Assembly (NCBI RefSeq): GCF_014696105.1
Contig: NZ_JACJPO010000067.1
Location: 1 to 64,000, forward strand
DNA: 64,000 nucleotides
Reading direction: 5' to 3'
Source of the DNA: Microcoleus sp. FACHB-1515
GTDB taxonomy: Bacteria > Cyanobacteriota > Cyanobacteriia > Elainellales > Elainellaceae
Shown here in pieces: positions 16,195-30,483 of the stretch (position 1 is its first letter; each line of letters starts with the position of its first letter). The notes beneath the pieces are model-generated. The model did not search any database and was not told where the DNA came from. It was given only the letters and a program-made list of their open reading frames with translations. A program made the position numbers and the translations under genes.

Positions 16195-16388
16195 GCCTTC
16201 CTTTCACTCACAAACAGCTAGCACTCTCTACTATTTTTGCAAGGCAACGAGCCGATAGCCGTTCGCGTTTCGCTGCGTAGCTGCAAACCCAGAAGGGATG
16301 AAGTTCAAAATATACCTTTGGAAGTAGGGTTGACGATCGCAACATTAATAAAATACGGTAAATCTATCGGTTTACTGAAATATTGCGA

Positions 16389-16871
16389 ATGCTCAATCAA
16401 TCGCGATCGGCAGCAACCGAGTCAACCCCGACTCAGCCAGCCGCTCAAAGTCTGCTGCAACATCTCACTCAACTGCGCTGGCAAGACTTCAGCTTGAAGC
16501 GGATGCGCGGCGGTTTGCTCGTTGCGATCGGCTATTTGCTTTCGCCGCTGTGCTGGTGGAACGACTTGGTTTTCAATCTACCTGTTGCTTATGCCTTTGG
16601 CTATGTCTGTAGCTGGATTTCGGCGGATTGGCTGCTGCCGGGGGCGATCGTGGGCTACTGGCTCTCAAATTTGGTTGGCATTGTGATGATGCAGTTTGGG
16701 GCGATCGATGTCCTCGACAAAACTCGTAACTTCAAAAAAGATTTGTGGACGGGCTTTATCACTTCGACCGTTTACACGCTGGCAGTTTTGGCACTCGTGC
16801 AGTTCAAAATTCTCGATCTTGCCGCGCTGCTGCCGGATCTGAGCACGATCTTCTCGGCTGCCACAAAGTAG
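16389..16871 (+). CDS. Conserved membrane protein, unknown function
   Basis: About 160 residues from ATG 16389 (TTG 16383 is an in-frame alternative). After a polar N-terminal arm (1-45) there are hydrophobic segments near 48-66, 74-90, 95-116 and 128-145. The RWQDFSLKRMRGG stretch just before the first helix and WWNDLVFNLPVAYAF look conserved, but I know no function. The TauE/SafE carrier starts 9 bp after its stop, so the two are almost certainly cotranscribed, and it may be an accessory of that transporter. Divergent from the large hybrid kinase. Confidence 0.7.
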   Translation: MLNQSRSAATESTPTQPAAQSLLQHLTQLRWQDFSLKRMRGGLLVAIGYLLSPLCWWNDLVFNLPVAYAFGYVCSWISADWLLPGAIVGYWLSNLVGIVMMQFGAIDVLDKTRNFKKDLWTGFITSTVYTLAVLALVQFKILDLAALLPDLSTIFSAATK

Positions 16872-16880
16872 GCGATCGCC

Positions 16881-17675
16881 ATGCATTATTTACTGTTGGC
16901 TGTCCTCAGTTTCGCGGTGGGCATTGTCGTTGGACTCACTGGAATTGGCGGCGCATCGCTGATTACACCGATGCTGATCTTTGTGTTTCAAGTGCCGCCG
17001 ACTGTGGCCGTCAGTTCCGATGTAGTCGCAGCCACGCTGATGAAAATTGTCGGCGGCATCAAACACTGGCGGCAGCAGACGATCGATCCCCAAGCCGTCC
17101 GTTGGTTGGCAACAGGCAGCATTCCCGGTTCACTCTTGGGCGTGGCGATGCTGCATCAACTGCGCCACACCAATATCAACTTGGATGCGATTTTGCTGCG
17201 ATCGATCGGCGGCGCAATTTTGCTGATTAGCGCGATCGCTTTGATTCAACTGCTGCTGATGATGTTTGCGCCCAAGCTGACCTTTCCCACGCCACCGAAG
17301 CTGAATTTAGAAACAGTAAAAGGGCGAAGTTTGGCGATCGCGATCGGGGCGATTTTAGGCTGCATGGTTGGCCTAACCAGCGTTTCTTCCGGTTCGCTGT
17401 TTGCCCTCGTGCTGATCGTGCTATTTCAGCTTGATGCTCAAAAGCTGGTTGGAACGGATTTGGCACAGGCGGCGATTTTGCTGTCGTTCACTGCGATCGC
17501 TCACCTGAGCTTAGGAACCGTAAACTGGAGTTTGGTGCTACCGATTTGGGCGGGTTCAATTCCCGGTGTGCTGATTGGCGCAAGGCTGTGTGAAATTGCC
17601 CCGCAGCGACTGTTGCGCTTTGGAATTTATCTGCTGCTCGTTGGTGTGAGTTGGAAGTTGGCGCATCCAATTTGA
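16881..17675 (+). CDS. TauE/SafE-family anion (sulfite/organosulfonate) exporter
   Basis: A 264-residue polytopic protein with about eight helices. It shows the family's repeated glycine-rich entry helices, VGIVVGLTGIGGASLITPML near the N-terminus and GAILGCMVGLTSVSSGS at the centre, mirroring the two-fold repeat of TauE/SafE (DUF81). Members move sulfite, sulfoacetate or other anions across the plasma membrane; substrate cannot be read from sequence. VSSDVVAATLMKIVGG is also typical. Translation is coupled to the upstream membrane gene (9 bp gap). The sulfur island 6 kb away makes a sulfur-compound substrate attractive but unproven. Confidence 0.85.
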   Translation: MHYLLLAVLSFAVGIVVGLTGIGGASLITPMLIFVFQVPPTVAVSSDVVAATLMKIVGGIKHWRQQTIDPQAVRWLATGSIPGSLLGVAMLHQLRHTNINLDAILLRSIGGAILLISAIALIQLLLMMFAPKLTFPTPPKLNLETVKGRSLAIAIGAILGCMVGLTSVSSGSLFALVLIVLFQLDAQKLVGTDLAQAAILLSFTAIAHLSLGTVNWSLVLPIWAGSIPGVLIGARLCEIAPQRLLRFGIYLLLVGVSWKLAHPI

Positions 17676-23340: not shown

Positions 23341-23519
23341 GTGTGCAAATTCCCCTGTAAATGGTTTTCGAGTTCTGGGGGAAGAACTCAAACAGGTGTC
23401 GTTTGCAAAGGCCGTTGCGTTAAACACAAGATCACTTTAGGTCTGAAGACAGATGCGATCAAACATTCTTTTTTGTCGATTGCATCACTTGAAGTTATCC
23501 ATTCAAAGAATATCTGATA

Positions 23520-23532
23520 AACTACGGTAGTT
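23520..23532. promoter_or_regulatory. Palindrome AACTAC-G-GTAGTT, candidate regulator site
   Basis: A perfect 6+6 palindrome around a central G, 56 bp before the lysR start and 180 bp before the divergent permease start. The same core (ACTACGG) appears again in intergenic DNA at 27787-27798, 29012-29023 and 29103-29114. Confidence 0.55.
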
Positions 23533-23587
23533 CGATCGATTTAATGATGATAGTAAAATTGCGCCCAGAAAGCGATCGCCAACCCAT

Positions 23588-24526
23588 ATGACCTTAGAGC
23601 AGTTAAAAATTTTCTTAGCCGTCGTTGAACACATGCACTTCACCAGAGCAGCAGACGCGCTCTACATCACTCAACCCGCCGTTAGTGCCGCCATTCAAAG
23701 TTTGGAAGAAGAATTTGGTGTCAAACTCTTTCACCGCATCGGTAGAAGAATTGAAATCACAGATGCCGGAACTTTTCTGCAAGTTGAAGCACAAAACCTT
23801 CTCAAGCAAGTTGAACTGACAGAGCGAGGTTTGCGCGAACTAAATAATCTTCAGCGTGGCGAACTTCGCATCGGTTCCAGCTTGACGATCGGCAACTACT
23901 GGTTGCCTGATAAAATCAGCCAGTTCAAACAGCAATACCCCGGAATTCTAGTAAACTGCACCTTAGCAAACGCTGAGGAAATTTGCGAAGGAACCGCAAC
24001 TGGACTGTTTGACCTTGGATTAGTTACAGGAGATGTTAAACCATCCCTACAGCAACATCTGGAGCAGGAAGCAGTGGGAAGCGATCGCCTGCAAATTATC
24101 GTGGGTCGATCGCATCCTTGGTTCGGCAAAACTCAGATTTCTGTGCAAGATTTGACAACTACAGATTGGGTGATGCGCGAATCCGGTTCTGGTGTTCAGC
24201 GCATGTTTGAACAAGCGGTTCAGCAATGGGACATTAATATCAATGAGCTAAATGTTGTCCTGACGTTGAACAGCAGTGAAATGGTGAAAGCTGTTGTTGA
24301 AAGCGGCGTCGGTGCGGCAGCAATTCCTGAAGTGATGGTACAAAAAGAGCGGCAGTTAAGTACACTTTGGGCGGTTCATGTTGTTCGATCCAGCAAAAAG
24401 ACTGACAAAGTCCTCGAAATCATTCAACCTGTTTGGAAGCTGAAGCATCGCCGTCGATTTCAAACTCGCTTGGCGATCGCTTTTGAAGAAATGCTGCTTC
24501 CGCAAGCCGCTGCTTCTTACCGCTGA
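23588..24526 (+). CDS. LysR-family transcriptional regulator
   Basis: A 312-residue LysR-type regulator. The N-terminal winged helix is clear (MTLEQLKIFLAVVEHMHFTR, AADALYITQPAVSAAIQSLE, residues 1-60) and is followed by the linker helix. A two-lobed effector-binding domain runs from about 90 to 300 (LRIGSSLTIGNYWLPD, then ESGSGVQRMFEQ). The effector is unknown. It is divergent from the APC permease, the usual layout for a regulator and its target. Given the sulfur genes downstream, a sulfur-assimilation signal is one possibility. Its last 10 bp overlap the convergent prohibitin gene. Confidence 0.93.
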   Translation: MTLEQLKIFLAVVEHMHFTRAADALYITQPAVSAAIQSLEEEFGVKLFHRIGRRIEITDAGTFLQVEAQNLLKQVELTERGLRELNNLQRGELRIGSSLTIGNYWLPDKISQFKQQYPGILVNCTLANAEEICEGTATGLFDLGLVTGDVKPSLQQHLEQEAVGSDRLQIIVGRSHPWFGKTQISVQDLTTTDWVMRESGSGVQRMFEQAVQQWDININELNVVLTLNSSEMVKAVVESGVGAAAIPEVMVQKERQLSTLWAVHVVRSSKKTDKVLEIIQPVWKLKHRRRFQTRLAIAFEEMLLPQAAASYR

Positions 24527-25350
24527 CTGTATTTCATTAATTCCTGTAGTTCCAGCTCAAATAATTTGTTGTTTTCACCTCCCATAATCAAAGGTAGCTG
24601 ACCGTTCCACCGATCGATCGCTTGTCGCTGCAAAAGTTCGATCGTCAAATTCTCTTTAAGCAACTGTTGTGCCTCGGCTTCTCCTCGCGCCAGATTTACT
24701 TTTGCCTCAGCTTCATTCAGTGCTTTTTGAGCAATAAATCCGGCTCGTTTGGCTTCTTGTTCAGCAATTTGTTTGGCTTCAACTGCGCTTCTAAATCGCT
24801 CTGAGAAATGCACGTGAACCAGTGAAATATCATCCACAGCAATGTGATAAGTCGAGAGGCGATCGCTCAACGATTCATCCACATTCCGTTTTACTTCACC
24901 TCGCCGCGTAATAATTTCTTCTGCCGTGTATTGTGCCATTACTGCTTTTAACACTTCTTCAACGGCAGGATTAATAATTCGATCGACGATCGCCTCTTGA
25001 TTACCAACTTGTTGAAAAATTAAGTTCGTTTCTTCCGGTAAAATGTGCCAGTTTAACGCTACATCTGAATAGACATCCTGCAAATCTTTCGTGGATGCTT
25101 CTGCCGAAATTTCTTGATTTTGAACGCGGACGCTGAGCTTTTCAACTGTGTCTCGCAGCGGAATGACAAAGTGAAGTCCTTCACTCAAAATTCGGTCTTG
25201 AACTTGACCAAACTGCATCAAAACGCCGCGATCGCCCGCTTCCACAATCACAAAAAACTTGGTGCAAATCAGCAAGATCAGCAGTATGACAAGCACTCGA
25301 ACAACGACATAGCCATCTGTGCGGGATTTGCGGCTGGACTCGATCGCCAT
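24517..25350 (-). CDS. Prohibitin/SPFH-domain membrane protein
   Basis: A 277-residue prohibitin-type protein. One membrane anchor (about 16-35) is followed by the SPFH domain (VEAGDRGVLMQFGQVQDRIL, EGLHFVIPLRDTVEKL, VQNQEISAEASTKDLQ). A long coiled coil follows (about 195-250, EAKQIAEQEAKRAGFIAQK). Such proteins form ring-like membrane scaffolds; in cyanobacteria a prohibitin is known in thylakoid and plasma membranes, with no settled function. It is 25 bp downstream of the broken rrf2 gene on the same strand, so the two were probably one operon. Confidence 0.92.
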   Translation of the reverse strand: MAIESSRKSRTDGYVVVRVLVILLILLICTKFFVIVEAGDRGVLMQFGQVQDRILSEGLHFVIPLRDTVEKLSVRVQNQEISAEASTKDLQDVYSDVALNWHILPEETNLIFQQVGNQEAIVDRIINPAVEEVLKAVMAQYTAEEIITRRGEVKRNVDESLSDRLSTYHIAVDDISLVHVHFSERFRSAVEAKQIAEQEAKRAGFIAQKALNEAEAKVNLARGEAEAQQLLKENLTIELLQRQAIDRWNGQLPLIMGGENNKLFELELQELMKYSQR

Positions 25351-25375
25351 GCTTCATCCGATGAGGGTTCGATCG

Positions 25376-25747
25376 CTAAATATAATACATCGGATTGATA
25401 AGCTGATGAGCATCGCGTTTTTGACACAAATCCTGGAGCGTGTATTGCTGCAAAACGGTTGATGATGCAGTGTGTTCTTCTTTCCAGACATCTTGTAGAA
25501 CGCTTTTTTCCAAGCATCTGATTCGACTGATTGTCTTTTGAATTTGGCTCACCTTCGATCGCCTGAAAAATATCGACCAGCGTAATCTTCCAGGCTTCAC
25601 GCGCCAGCACATATCCGCCCTTTGCGCCGCGCAAGCTTTGCACAATGCCACCGCGCCGCAGGCTCATCAACACCTGCTCAAGATAACGTTCAGGAATGTC
25701 TTGTTTCGCTGCAATTTCACTGACTTTAAGCGGGTCTTCTTTAATGG
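25376..25747 (-). pseudogene. Rrf2-family regulator: 5'-truncated and frameshifted
   Basis: On the minus strand from 25747 the reading SIKEDPLKVSEIAAKQDIPE, then RYLEQVLMSLRRGGIVQSLR and GAKGGYVLAREAWKITLVDI, is the Rrf2 winged helix without its first 20 or so residues. Near 25548-25555 the frame shifts. The other frame continues KSVLQDVWKEEH, TVLQQYTLQDLCQKRD and ends NPMYYI, the normal C-terminus of cyanobacterial Rrf2 proteins. So both the start and the frame are lost. Rrf2 regulators include CymR, a cysteine/sulfur regulator, which fits the neighbouring sulfonate transporter debris. Upstream of 25747 the sequence switches to an antiparallel ssuC fragment, marking a deletion junction. Confidence 0.8.
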
Positions 25748-26065
25748 ATTGAAATGGGCGAAATTTATGGACTGCGATCGCACGAATTGTTCTGGCAAAT
25801 TATTTTACCAGGAGCGCTTCCGGGTATTCTTGTCGGCCTTCGCTATGCCCTCGGTTTGATGTGGCTAACGCTGATTGTGGCCGAAACGATCGCCGCCAAT
25901 TCAGGCATCGGCTACATGGCAATGAACGCTAGAGAATTTATGCAAACCGATGTTGTTGTGCTGAGCATTTTGCTTTACGCCTTACTCGGTAAATTGGCCG
26001 ATTCGATCGTGCGAATTCTAGAGCGCTGGTTACTTCCCTGGCATCCCAGCCAACATTTAGCTTAA
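25748..26065 (+). pseudogene. ssuC: Sulfonate/taurine ABC permease (SsuC) C-terminal fragment
   Basis: The plus strand reads IEMGEIYGL, then ILPGALPGILVGLRYALGL, WLTLIVAETIAANSGIGYMA and MNAREFMQTDVVVLSILLYA, ending at 26065. This is the last 105 or so residues of an SsuC/TauC inner-membrane permease, including the cytoplasmic EAA loop (the G-x-x-x-x-x-x-x-x-LP part). The first 150 or more residues are missing, and a stop codon (25742-25744) closes the frame just upstream. It abuts the truncated rrf2 gene. The intact gene would work with SsuA and SsuB to import alkanesulfonates as a sulfur source. Confidence 0.8.
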
Positions 26066-26075
26066 AGGAGATTTC

Positions 26076-26345
26076 ATGGTTACACTCAGTTCAAATCAAG
26101 CGCAGATCCAGCCGTAATACGGCACAGAAATTCGCCTGAAAAATCTCGGAAAATCGTTTGGTGATGTACAAGTTTTAAGCAACATCAACCTCGATATGCA
26201 TTCTGGTGAATTTGTCGCGATCGTCGGACGAAGCGGCTGCGGCAAAAGTACATTGCTACGTTTGATTGCTGGATTAGAAACACCAACGAGTGGCGAAATT
26301 GCCATCCTGGAGATGCGGAATTTGCAAGGGTTAAATCACAAATTC
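26076..26345 (+). pseudogene. ssuB: SsuB ATPase fragment with in-frame stop and missing 3' end
   Basis: It starts ATG 26076 with AAGGAG just upstream, 10 bp after the ssuC stop, as in an ssuC-ssuB operon. Codons 1-13 (MVTLSSNQAQIQP) are followed by TAA, and the same frame then continues [33 protein letters not shown], Walker [21 protein letters not shown] and LQGLNH. After about 26340 homology ends; the Q-loop, signature motif and Walker B are absent. It cannot make a working ATPase. It is cut off before the hairpin at 26386. Confidence 0.8.
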
Positions 26346-26385
26346 TCGATCGAATTCTCCAGAAGTCGTAGCAACATCAAGCTGA

Positions 26386-26425
26386 AAAAGAACCCCGGCA
26401 GAGTACTATCTACCGGGGTTCTTTT
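26386..26425. terminator. Strong bidirectional terminator after the ssu remnant
   Basis: AAAAGAACCCCGG (26386-26398) and CCGGGGTTCTTTT (26413-26425) pair perfectly over 13 bp with a 14-nt loop. It carries A-run and T-run ends, so it works on both strands. It may be the original end of the ssu operon. Confidence 0.85.
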
Positions 26426-26436
26426 CGTCAGTGAAA

Positions 26437-26613
26437 TTAAGAGCGATTCGTTGTTGTCGGCTCCTGCTGACTGCTTGAATCTTGCGTTTCAGTTGGAGCG
26501 CAACTAATCAACTGTCCAGCGTTCAAGTGTCGATTTAGGCTCGTGGAAATAGACCCGATCGAAGCAAAAGCACTAAGAGAGAAAAGGGCGATCGCAAATT
26601 TCAAACTCATCAT
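26437..26613 (-). CDS. Short exported peptide, unknown
   Basis: About 58 residues. The in-frame ATG at 26619 lies directly against AGAAGG, so the better starts are ATG 26613 or 26610, with proper spacing. [20 protein letters not shown] looks like a signal peptide; the rest is polar ([20 protein letters not shown]) with a single Cys. I know no family. It is framed by a terminator just downstream (26386-26425) and a 13-bp inverted repeat just upstream (26630-26666), so it looks like an independent small unit. It could still be a chance frame in degraded DNA. Confidence 0.4.
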
Positions 26614-26629
26614 TTTCATCCTTCTAAAT

Positions 26630-26666
26630 TAATAGAGATGCAACAGTATTTGCTGCATCTCTATTA
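26630..26666. repeat. 13-bp inverted repeat between rhodanese and small ORF
   Basis: TAATAGAGATGCA (26630-26642) and TGCATCTCTATTA (26654-26666) are perfect inverted copies with an 11-nt loop. It lies just after the rhodanese stop on the minus strand. It could act as its terminator, although there is no long T-run. Confidence 0.55.
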
Positions 26667-26682
26667 TCTCTAGTAACAGTAG

Positions 26683-27654
26683 CTATGCGCCTGCGCCAGT
26701 TTCAACGGGTAGTTCAGGATGAGAAGAATATTCGGTCCAAGAGCCTTCATAAACTCGCACTTTTGGATAGCCCAGCAGATGCTTCAGCACGTTGTACTGC
26801 AAGGTTGCTTCTCGTCCGGTGCTGCAAGTGACGATGATATCATCTTCGGGCGTAATTCCTCGATCGGCTAACAGTTGGCGAATCTCATCAAGCGGTTTAA
26901 GCTGATGAAAATTTGCCTCTCCAACTGTGAAGGTCGGCCAAGGAATGTTTTTCGCACCGGGAATATGTCCGTTCCGCACCCAAATGTCTTGAGTGCCTGC
27001 AAACACATCGGCAGGACGCGGATCGATAAAGGTAATTTCCGGTTTGCCGATGAACTGCCGCACCTGATCTAAAGTGACGCGAATCGAGTCATTATCCTGT
27101 GCAGTGAATCGTCCGGGCGTATAGCTGGGAAATGCTTTGGTTACAGGCAGATTTGCTGCTTTATAGCCTGCAAAACCGCCGTCCAAGATGGCGACGTTGC
27201 TGTGTCCAGTCCGCTCTAGCAAATAGGCAACCATCGTTGCGCCTAGAACGTCTCTTCCGTCTGAATAAATTAGCACGTTGCTGTCATCAGTTACGCCTGC
27301 TTGAGCAAAAAGCGAACTTAACTTTTGTGTATCCCAATATTGCACAGGCAAGACACCGTTGGGACCGCGAAAGGTATTATCAGCCACGTGAACGGCGTTG
27401 GGAAGATGGGCAGTGAAGTAGTCAAACGGGTTAATTCGCACATCTAAAACGCGCAAATTCGGATCATTGGCATGTTCAGCAACCCAGGAGGGCGAAACGA
27501 ATTCAACGCGAGTCGAGGAGGCAGTTGTTGCGGTGACAGCGATCGACCACAGCGGAATTGCAACCACACAAACGAGTAAAGATGCAAAAAATGCTAGCAC
27601 TTTCGATTGCCAATTTCGAGCGTGAAACAGTTGTCGTAAACGATTCAATTTCAT
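26683..27654 (-). CDS. Exported two-domain rhodanese (sulfurtransferase)
   Basis: About 323 residues from ATG 27654, chosen because GGAG lies 8 bp upstream; an in-frame start at 27690 is less likely. A hydrophobic N-terminal segment (about 18-42) predicts export or a membrane anchor. Two rhodanese domains follow. The first (about 55-180) has SDGR where the catalytic Cys would be, as is normal for the inactive N-terminal domain. The second (about 190-315) has the active loop TCSTGREAT with its Cys. Members transfer sulfur from thiosulfate or 3-mercaptopyruvate to acceptors; the substrate here is unknown. It has motif copies at 27767-27798 upstream and sits next to cysA. Confidence 0.9.
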   Translation of the reverse strand: MKLNRLRQLFHARNWQSKVLAFFASLLVCVVAIPLWSIAVTATTASSTRVEFVSPSWVAEHANDPNLRVLDVRINPFDYFTAHLPNAVHVADNTFRGPNGVLPVQYWDTQKLSSLFAQAGVTDDSNVLIYSDGRDVLGATMVAYLLERTGHSNVAILDGGFAGYKAANLPVTKAFPSYTPGRFTAQDNDSIRVTLDQVRQFIGKPEITFIDPRPADVFAGTQDIWVRNGHIPGAKNIPWPTFTVGEANFHQLKPLDEIRQLLADRGITPEDDIIVTCSTGREATLQYNVLKHLLGYPKVRVYEGSWTEYSSHPELPVETGAGA

Positions 27655-27766
27655 TCGAGGCGCTCCTAAAAGATTGAAGATCGATCGCAATTGAGACTGG
27701 CTGATTGCAAGCTCTCAGCAGATTAGCAGCTTGTTTCCAGCGACTCCATCCGCTGCTAACCAAAAT

Positions 27767-27798
27767 ATTACAGTAATTTGACCAATTTACCGTAGTAT
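27767..27798 (-). promoter_or_regulatory. Two dyads upstream of the rhodanese gene (ATTACAGTAAT and TTACCGTAGTAT)
   Basis: ATTACAGTAAT (27767-27777) is a perfect TAC-N-GTA palindrome. TTACCGTAGTAT (27787-27798) carries the ACTACGGTAA core on the minus strand. Both lie 110-145 bp upstream of the rhodanese start and resemble the site in front of lysR. Confidence 0.5.
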
Positions 27799-27893
27799 AC
27801 AGCAATAGTGACTGCTCAATCAAGCTGTAAAACTCTAAATCGGCCTCCAATAAGTTCCATTACTAGGAGCTGATTCAAACTTCCAATTGAAGT

Positions 27894-28907
27894 TCAGTTG
27901 AAGGCATATTCTGGAAACGTTTTGACCTGCTTCGGCTTCACGTAAACTTGCTGACGAGGTGTAAGCTGAAGCCTGTCGTAATCTTCGCGGCTCAGATGCG
28001 CGTTGACAATTTGACCTGATTCAAGCAGAAGTTCTACTTGAATTTCCCAGCCGAGATGAACAATGTGATTAATTTGAGCAGGAACCGCTTCTTCGATCGC
28101 CTCTGGTTGAATTAGGATGTCATGCGGTCGCAAAAAGACGCGATCGCTCGCCGCAACCTTTTCTTTAGGCAAAATTCCTGAAGCAGCAGGCAACACATTC
28201 ACAGGTCCAATAAAGCTCATCACAAATGGCGTTGCAGGATGATCGTAGATATCTGCGGGCTTGCCAACCTGCTCAATTCGACCTTTGTTCATCACCACGA
28301 CTTCATCGGAAACTTCCATTGCTTCCTCTTGATCGTGCGTCACAAAAACGGTTGTCACTTGCACTTCTTCATGCAGATGCCGCAGCCATTGCCTGAGATC
28401 TTTTCGCACTTTGGCATCAAGTGCGCCGAACGGTTCATCTAGCAGCAATACCTGCGGTTGAATCGCAAGTGCTCGTGCGAGGGCGACCCGCTGCCGCTGT
28501 CCTCCTGACAGTTGGGAGGGATAGCGATCGCCCAATCCGCCAAGCTGCACAAGCCCCAGCAGTTCTTCCACACGATTTTTTACTCGTGCTTTCGGCCACT
28601 TGTTAATCTCCAGCCCAAACGCAACATTTTCACGAATCGTCAAATGCTTGAATAAAGCGTAGTGCTGAAACACAAAGCCCATTCGTCGAGCCTGTACTGG
28701 GTCGTGAGTGGCATCGCGTCCTGACACATAAATGTTGCCGCTGTCGGGCTTTTCCAGTCCTGCAATGACGCGCAGCAGCGTAGATTTGCCTGAGCCAGAT
28801 GGTCCTAACAGGGCAACGAGCGATCCGGTTTTGATTTCGAGATTGATGCGATCGAGCGCTTGGAAGCTACCGAAGTGTTTTGAGACGTTATCTACTGTAA
28901 TACCCAT
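27894..28907 (-). CDS. cysA: Sulfate/thiosulfate ABC transporter ATPase CysA
   Basis: A 337-residue ATPase from ATG 28907 ([25 protein letters not shown] 9 bp upstream). It has Walker [13 protein letters not shown]-loop [11 protein letters not shown], signature [15 protein letters not shown], Walker [13 protein letters not shown] and the switch His (FVTHDQEEA). The C-terminal regulatory domain (about 240-337) includes [10 protein letters not shown] and VFLRPHDI, typical of CysA. It energises sulfate/thiosulfate uptake by CysT/CysW/SbpA. None of those partners is in the window; on the 5' side there is only a NIL-domain remnant and a Crp-family regulator. It would have to use permeases encoded elsewhere. 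Confidence 0.93.
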
Positions 28908-29011
28908 GTGTTGATTTCCTAGCAAAATCGATCGGTGAAAGGAGTGAATACATCTGCGTAGCTTGGCCGTAAGCAGGCGTTTCAAACCCTACATGGCTGC
29001 ATAATAGAGCA

Positions 29012-29023
29012 ATACTACGGCAA
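29012..29023. promoter_or_regulatory. ACTACGGCAA motif upstream of cysA
   Basis: ATACTACGGCAA, 105 bp upstream of the cysA start, forms an inverted pair with TTGCCGTAGTTT at 29103-29114, 79 bp away. Same core as the sites before lysR and rhodanese. Confidence 0.5.
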
Positions 29024-29102
29024 TTTGATCGATCTATCGTATTTTTATAGAATTCAGTTTGCGATCGTCTCAATCAGCAGTAAATACTTATTTTCGATTT
29101 AC

Positions 29103-29114
29103 TTGCCGTAGTTT
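29103..29114. promoter_or_regulatory. TTGCCGTAGTTT motif upstream of the NIL remnant
   Basis: Inverted copy of the 29012-29023 motif, 16 bp before the ATG of the NIL-domain remnant. The two sites could serve the divergent cysA and NIL promoters. Confidence 0.5.
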
Positions 29115-29129
29115 ATTAGAACAACAGTG

Positions 29130-29255
29130 ATGGCGATTCGCTTGATGATGAGCAGCAAAACGCAACTGCGATCGCGGATCTATATTCCCCACCACCATTT
29201 GCAAGAACCAGTTTTATCGAGCCTGATTGCCGACTACAGCCTGAGCGTAGCAATT
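29130..29255 (+). pseudogene. NIL-domain protein, N-terminal remnant
   Basis: From ATG 29130 the reading MAIRLMMSSKTQLRSRIYIP continues HHHLQEPVLSSLIADYSLSV, which matches the first strand and helix of the NIL domain (R-x-x-I-P-x-x-x-x-x-E-P-v-i-s-x-L-x-x-x-y). The domain occurs in methionine ABC ATPases and in small stand-alone cyanobacterial proteins near sulfur genes. Intact forms run to about 75 or more residues; here homology stops at about 29255. The frame then reads unrelated sequence into the opposing crp-family gene (stop 29352 area). It is another piece lost from this island. Confidence 0.55.
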
Positions 29256-29294
29256 GATTGGCAAAGCAAACCCCACAGGCGACGACTGGCACTG

Positions 29295-29912
29295 CTAAAT
29301 CTCGTAGTGCCAAGTTTCCCATTCGTGCAGCAGAATTTGTCGCACCGATGAGCGCTCAATCAAACCTTGCGCTTCAAGCTGTTGCAGGCAGCGTGTAATC
29401 GTGACGCGAGTTGCGCCCAGCAGTTCAGCGATGTCTTGATGCGTCAGACGTAATTCAAGCAGTTGACCGCGATCGATCGTCCGTCCAAATCGGTTCGCAA
29501 GCCAACCCAAAAGTTTAATCAAGGCAGGTTCAATTCGCCGAATACTGCGAATAATCATTAGTTCTTCGGTCTGCTGAAGATGCGCGGCGAGAATGTCGTT
29601 CAGTTGTTTCGCATCGGCGATCGCAGCGGGCAAAACTTCAACTGTTGTTAGGCATTCGATGTGCTGATTCGATCGCGACACCCCGACAATATCACCTGTT
29701 CCCCACACGCCCAACGGCACAGTTGTTCCGTCTTCGAGATAGCTTAACGTGCGGACAAATCCGGTTTGAATCTGCCAGCCAGTCGGCGCAGCGGGAAGAA
29801 GCGATCGCGCAGCAAATTTCTTCGATTGCGGTTCAGCTTGAGCTGTTCCAAAGGTGGAAACATTCTGCGAATGAAAAGTCGAAAGCAGAGGGCGAAGTAA
29901 CGAGGTTGACAT
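29295..29912 (-). CDS. Crp/Fnr (NtcA/CysR)-like transcriptional regulator
   Basis: A 205-residue regulator. A partial cNMP-type sensor domain is followed by a C-terminal helix-turn-helix (LRLTHQDIAELLGATRVTIT, then RCLQQLEAQGLIERSSVRQI), the normal end of this family. The beta-roll (GWQIQTGFVRTLSYLEDGTT, VPLGVWGTGDIVG) is shorter than in NtcA and lacks the classic cAMP-binding RSAR block, as in CysR-like proteins. Cyanobacterial CysR controls sulfate uptake genes, and this gene sits beside cysA, so a sulfur role is plausible but inferred. ATG 29912 is the only ATG available. Confidence 0.85.
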   Translation of the reverse strand: MSTSLLRPLLSTFHSQNVSTFGTAQAEPQSKKFAARSLLPAAPTGWQIQTGFVRTLSYLEDGTTVPLGVWGTGDIVGVSRSNQHIECLTTVEVLPAAIADAKQLNDILAAHLQQTEELMIIRSIRRIEPALIKLLGWLANRFGRTIDRGQLLELRLTHQDIAELLGATRVTITRCLQQLEAQGLIERSSVRQILLHEWETWHYEI

Positions 29913-30073: not shown

Positions 30074-30483
30074 GGGCTACACAATCCATCATCTTGAGGG
30101 CAGCCTGCACTCAAGAGCAGGCTCAAGCCGATTGGTCTTACCGAAACGGTTCTTCGCTTCAGACGCATTCGATCGTCCTCCAAAGTCAATCAGAACTATC
30201 AATCGCATCTCAAATCCAGTCAAATACGATAAGTCGATCGAGTTACCGTGTTTTATAGTCAAAACTATGACACAAGGCAGATTAAAAAGCAAGGTTGACT
30301 CTTGCCTAACTCACAAACCCCAAGTGATTCAGAAACTAGATCGCCGCAATTCGCGTCATCTGAAACATTTTCTTAAAACCGAATTGCACTCAAGCGCGAT
30401 CGCCCGACAATTTCTTCTAAATTGGATCAAGATTTAGAGGCAAGGGAGGCTACTTATTGCTTAGCCGATCGGCTGCCCACAAA

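Follow-up and report, generated by a model that had tools for sequence, protein, structure and literature searches.

In the sulfur island of Microcoleus sp. FACHB-1515, a cyanobacterium of the Elainellaceae, a similar short inverted repeat is found before the genes for a LysR-type regulator, a rhodanese and the sulfate transporter ATPase CysA, which raises the question whether these genes form one regulon and which protein reads the repeat. The island lies within positions 1 to 64,000 of contig NZ_JACJPO010000067.1 (assembly GCF_014696105.1); this stretch of 64,000 nucleotides is called the window in the following. The original prediction, made from the letters of the window, was that a dyad with the core ACTACGGYAA marks intergenic regions of the island and is recognized by a single regulator, perhaps the LysR protein, a lost Rrf2 protein or a Crp-like protein. 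From a comparison of genomes we now propose that the repeat belongs to the operator by which a sulfur/cysteine regulon of cyanobacteria is controlled and that this operator is read by the Crp-like protein (29295-29912), and we assign to the two statements taken together a probability of roughly 0.6.

All strings on which the prediction was built are present in the window where it had placed them, and the dyad is real: with up to one mismatch ACTACGGYAA occurs 12 times in the window, where 3.3 copies are expected, and none of 100 shuffled sequences reached 12. The 10-bp core is, however, not a unit of its own. It has 17 exact matches in the genome, of which the three in the island are intergenic and the other 14 are nearly all located within long open frames, where they mostly code for YYG or DYG, typically DYGK/N (the frame test was undecided for three). 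We rejected the core as the unit in favor of a longer site to which it belongs as one arm. An alignment of 33 sites from other genomes yielded a palindrome of 34 bp with the left half AAAnTACGGTAAnTYGA and the right half TCRAnTTACCGTAnTTT. Each site consists of two TACGGTAA arms with centres 19 bp apart; each arm forms a TAC-N-GTA dyad of its own, and the inner half-sites are spaced GTA-N12-TAC. The elements at 27767 and 27787, which had been counted separately, belong to one site as its two arms. The extended pattern was matched in 8 of 36 genomes of the family, partly on contigs with an orthologous rhodanese gene, and the regions in these relatives show two TAC-N-GTA elements 19 bp apart.

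A weight matrix trained on the 33 sites, none of which is from the strain itself, picks exactly six sites in the window (Table 1) with scores from 20.8 to 35.9, the next best position scoring 1.8. In a random sequence of 5.8 Mb with the dinucleotide statistics of the window one position reached 16 or more, and with 200 column-permuted matrices the maximum in the window was never above 15.6. An Infernal sequence model run on all 96 contigs of the strain found four sites at E ≤0.01 and, among the matches listed, all were in the window. The core had been thought to occur in non-coding DNA only in the island, which is wrong already within the window because the strong site at 16354-16379, before the genes of a transmembrane (TM) protein and a TauE exporter, had been missed; and what had been called a degenerate copy near 30242 is among the four best sites (score 34.9). 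Neither is the regulon confined to the island. Outside the window the matrix scan covered 1.19 Mb of the strain's DNA and the pattern and Infernal scans all of it; in the 1.19 Mb a single site scored 11 or more, and it stands before cysK (contig C13), so that the motif does not occur at background frequency before unrelated genes. The genes sbpA-cysT-cysW are found on contig C16 (46052-48931) with a site of 25.2 directly before sbpA. Both sites turned up after the matrix had been fixed.

The scan of the relatives gave the same picture. In loci from 49 genomes there were 165 sites, only 6 of them deep inside open reading frames, and the genes behind them include, as in the strain itself, cysA, sbpA, rhodanese, TauE and cysK genes, together with ssu and tau genes, cysE and Rrf2 genes. 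Counted by genomes the commonest target is the Crp-like gene (18), followed by cysA (12), the rhodanese gene (12), the TM protein/TauE pair (9, with the site at the same place), a SsuA-like gene (9), sbpA (8), TauD (7), Rrf2 (6), Band7 (5) and SsuD (4); the names SsuA, SsuD and Band7 rest on similarity seen by eye, not on a Pfam test. In the named genomes with Crp-like loci, mostly of Nostoc, Pseudanabaena, Elainella, Oculatella and Stenomitos, families with a Pfam assignment had a site upstream in 23 of 25 loci (serine acetyltransferase-like gene), 16 of 19 members (sbpA), 16 of 16 (NIL-like) and 27 of 37 (Rrf2). Before cysA/sbpA the sites are paired in at least eight relatives, with a distance of 61-80 bp between the two; for the pair at 29016 and 29085 in the window it is 69 bp. 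On the sequences scanned, a common site thus stands before functionally coherent genes, is conserved across families and is essentially absent elsewhere. Because the sites of the relatives stand before sulfur genes and are nearly always intergenic, the prediction of one regulator and one sulfur regulon is supported insofar as a single type of site marks the regulon and the Crp-like protein tracks it from genome to genome; as readers, the LysR protein and the lost Rrf2 protein fared less well (see below).

Among the three candidates the Crp-like protein is best supported, by the distribution of its orthologues and by the sites upstream of them. Its Crp-type winged helix-turn-helix is recognized by PF13545 (55.7 bits) and PF00325 (46.7 bits), both over cut-off, and the AlphaFold model (pLDDT 82.5) has an N-terminal beta-roll (strands 31-95) and a long dimer helix (101-122). 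The model is most similar in the Protein Data Bank to NtcA and then to CAP; in a profile search NtcA also came first, with about 24% identity and an identical recognition segment TRVTVTR. In trees the orthologues form one clade, which in a second tree contains all site-bearing rows and three without. A site is found within 500 bp upstream in 48 of 57 orthologue loci but in none of 23 paralogue loci, and the density of sites is 162 in 989 kb around orthologues versus 1 in 334 kb around paralogues. In the window the gene adjoins cysA. In one relative (G042, locus L242, 5200-7901) a strong site precedes a single operon of cysT, cysW, a NIL gene and the crp gene; of the loci that we have seen, this one ties the Crp-like gene most neatly to sulfate transport. 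In Phormidium tanganyikae the copy of the Crp-like gene is broken, and there are no sites there.

When 60 genomes were divided by hand into 30 with and 30 without sites, 21 of the former and none of the latter had an orthologue of the Crp-like protein (Fisher P 4e-9), but such Fisher values overstate independence because the genomes are related, and this is the first of several points that weigh against the Crp-like protein as reader. The chief doubt is the spacing: GTA-N12-TAC exceeds by four bases the GTA-N8-TAC usual for Crp and NtcA and lies outside the class of half-sites about one helical turn apart (N6 or N8), and each arm is in addition a TAC-N-GTA dyad. The doubt concerns the site, not the fold of the protein; it follows from the spacing that in this clade the two DNA-binding heads would be further apart, or two dimers would bind, or another protein would be the reader. 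Nine of the site-bearing genomes lack an orthologue: in seven the only Crp proteins are paralogues, and in the other two, G012 and G013, no Crp match was obtained at E 1e-15. Conversely, in Microcystis the orthologue adjoins genes for CysK, TauE, Band7 and rhodanese, yet no site was recognizable, nor was a replacement dyad recognized there by eye. In Microcystis aeruginosa (L306, L307) the recognition helix is nearly the same, and the site has been lost or has diverged. Finally, downstream of the sites no clear fixed -10 or other promoter element was found, merely a weak excess of TANNNT about 32 bp beyond the centre. This excess is only a hint of activation, which for this reason stays a proposal.

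The two arms suggest as an alternative that the site is read by some other regulator whose gene is not linked to it, binding for instance as two dimers, one on each TAC-N-GTA arm, and that the Crp-like gene is merely its most constant target. Each arm being a dyad, with the arms 19 bp apart, fits this idea, as do the nine genomes with sites that have no Crp orthologue and the exception of Microcystis. We nevertheless consider it rather unlikely: none of the regulators tested tracks the sites as well as the Crp-like protein, and the near-universal site at the Crp-like gene suggests that this gene is autoregulated.

Rrf2 proteins suit long palindromes, and from the length of the site an Rrf2 protein had been the first choice, which was then weakened by the distribution and the tree. 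A CymR-like Rrf2 regulator would read the site and repress the genes under plentiful cysteine, perhaps together with CysK; the strain having lost the island copy, the ubiquitous Rrf2 protein encoded on contig C13 would have taken over or the sites would be relics. Rrf2 genes are present in 36 of the 57 Crp loci and frequently carry a site, cysK and cysE are neighbors or targets, and CymR works with CysK in Bacillus subtilis (PMC2940859). Against this, the Rrf2 genes of the islands do not group as a single clade, and beyond the two ubiquitous Rrf2 genes none was found in the site-rich genomes G003, G005, G007, G018, G026, G042, G054 and G059, which speaks against the lost Rrf2 protein as a universal reader. 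By approximate counts an island-type Rrf2 gene is present in about 13 of the 30 site-bearing and about 3 of the 30 site-less genomes. The ubiquitous Rrf2 genes occur nearly everywhere regardless of sites and have no site upstream, that on contig C13 included. On balance, an Rrf2 reader is unlikely.

The LysR protein is encoded in the island behind a site of 27.2, and its association with the sites, although weaker than that of the Crp-like protein, is apparent (14 of 30 site-bearing versus 2 of 30 site-less genomes). Its orthologue is, however, absent from many site-rich genomes (G009, G018, G020, G025, G026, G027, G053 and G059), the lysR gene is seldom a target in relatives (2 genomes), and the site differs in shape from the usual T-N11-A dyad of LysR regulators. 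As a reader the LysR protein is thus very unlikely and was rejected on its distribution among the genomes; it is probably a target. That the sites are chance similarities, or that a small mobile repeat has been copied to these places, as the sites at 29016 and 29085 facing each other like terminal repeats might suggest, is refuted for practical purposes by their conservation at orthologous promoters across families with diverged flanks, by their position nearly always before sulfur genes and by the lack of a background of such sites in the 1.19 Mb of the strain's own DNA.

If the Crp-like protein is the reader, the system could work as follows. Sulfur shortage would switch this CysR-like protein to DNA binding; one may speculate that the signal is O-acetylserine, or else a sulfur amino acid to which the NIL proteins bind. 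The protein would then occupy the sites with its NtcA-like recognition helix, either as a homodimer or as two dimers together, and activate the genes for uptake and cysteine synthesis, the regulator's own gene included. The two sites that lie 69 bp from each other would have served divergent cysA/sbpA promoters in an ancestor. In the strain studied here the ssu genes have decayed, as has the Rrf2 gene of the island, but the sites for cysA, rhodanese, TauE, LysR, Crp, sbpA and cysK are still present.

Table 1. Predicted operator sites, genes and gene relics in the window. The matrix score is that of the 34-bp weight matrix (see text).
Feature	Position	Strand	Evidence and remarks
Site before TM protein/TauE pair	16350-16383, core 16354-16379 TACGGTAAATCTATCGGTTTACTGAA		Matrix score 35.6; own-genome Infernal E 1.4e-4
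Site before lysR	23519-23552, core 23523-23548 TACGGTAGTTCGATCGATTTAATGAT		Matrix score 27.2; one arm perfect, other weak
Site before rhodanese gene	27765-27798, core 27769-27794 TACAGTAATTTGACCAATTTACCGTA		Matrix score 35.9; both arms perfect; unites elements 27767-27777 and 27787-27798
Site before cysA, first of pair	29012-29045, core 29016-29041 TACGGCAATTTGATCGATCTATCGTA		Matrix score 34.3
Site, second of cysA pair	29081-29114, core 29085-29110 TACTTATTTTCGATTTACTTGCCGTA		Matrix score 20.8; 69 bp from first
Site about 0.3 kb upstream of Crp-like gene	30221-30254, core 30225-30250 TACGATAAGTCGATCGAGTTACCGTG		Matrix score 34.9; best Infernal site of the genome, E 5.8e-5
Crp/Fnr-family regulator, CysR-like, proposed reader	29295-29912	-	Pfam HTH_Crp_2 and Crp
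LysR-type regulator	23588-24526	+	Pfam HTH_1 and LysR_substrate
TM protein and TauE/SafE exporter, putative regulon members	16383-16871 and 16881-17675	+	Pfam TauE for 16881-17672; pair conserved beside site
Exported rhodanese (sulfurtransferase), putative regulon member	26683-27657	-	Pfam Rhodanese
cysA, sulfate ABC transporter ATPase, putative regulon member	27894-28907	-	TIGR00968, 430.8 bits, over cut-off
Rrf2 gene fragment (relic)	25497-25736	-	49% identity to Rrf2 of G058, residues 29-108 only
SsuC (sulfonate permease) C-terminal fragment (relic)	25754-26065	+	NCBIfam SsuC profile positions 157-258 of 263
SsuB (ATPase) N-terminal fragment (relic)	26083-26330	+	ABC_tran positions 9-51 of 137; in-frame stop near start
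NIL-domain remnant beside cysA sites	29130-29311	+	Frame resembles stand-alone NIL proteins of relatives by eye

The orthologues of the rhodanese are 57-74% identical to it and have the site upstream. The TM protein has no Pfam family and is repeatedly paired with TauE and a site, which makes it a candidate for a new partner in sulfur export. In the sulfur islands of relatives the ssu genes are intact, and several of these islands have an Rrf2 gene that is intact as well. Since the region 25497-26330 holds relics where the relatives have intact ssu genes, the lineage seems to be losing the use of sulfonates. Intact NIL genes are present in G042 and in Nostoc; in relatives they are next to cysW or to the Crp-like gene, frequently with a site of their own. 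Between 19321 and 21856, and likewise in relatives, there are conserved genes for membrane proteins that occur as a pair and look CadD-like to the eye, for a DUF202-like protein and for a small exported protein, and on contig C16 an apparent tRNA gene is located just upstream of sbpA-cysT-cysW.

With a matrix that is nearly free of background the sulfur regulon can be predicted for each genome in turn, from the uptake of sulfate, sulfonates and taurine to cysE/cysK, rhodanese, TauE and NIL proteins, and the TM protein beside TauE, the Band7 protein and the stand-alone NIL proteins are joined to sulfur metabolism. The question of who controls the sulfur genes is reduced to a simple one of binding. 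More tentatively, the site could be a widespread, hitherto undescribed sulfur/cysteine operator that a Crp-family protein recognizes with a new geometry (34 bp, with GTA-N12-TAC or with two dimers on TAC-N-GTA arms), which would make the system a sulfur counterpart of NtcA. In the open-access literature, to which the search was confined, we found neither a described motif that matches the 34-bp site nor a DNA site for CysR; for this reason the novelty of the motif is likely, not proven.

Three known systems invite comparison. In Bacillus subtilis the Rrf2-family protein CymR is, together with CysK, the master control of cysteine metabolism (PMC2940859). The cyanobacterial regulon likewise comprises cysK, cysE and an Rrf2 gene, but the protein that tracks the sites is Crp-like, and the island Rrf2 gene is missing from several site-rich genomes. 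CysR is a member of the Crp family. In Synechococcus elongatus PCC 7942 it regulates sulfate assimilation and is encoded with the sulfate transporter genes, and a cysR-null mutant is impaired (PMC12016511). The protein proposed here as reader is of the same family and is encoded beside cysA in the window and in the cysT-cysW-NIL-crp operon of G042; it is on this family and gene context that we call it CysR-like. NtcA reads GTAN8TAC, with sites centred near -41.5 (PMC3898017). It is the nearest solved structure to the Crp-like protein, the recognition residues TRVTVTR are the same, and GTA/TAC half-sites are common to both; the sulfur site differs by N12 instead of N8 and by an extra outer TAC and AAA in each arm, it precedes sulfur rather than nitrogen genes, and the two proteins are only about 24% identical.

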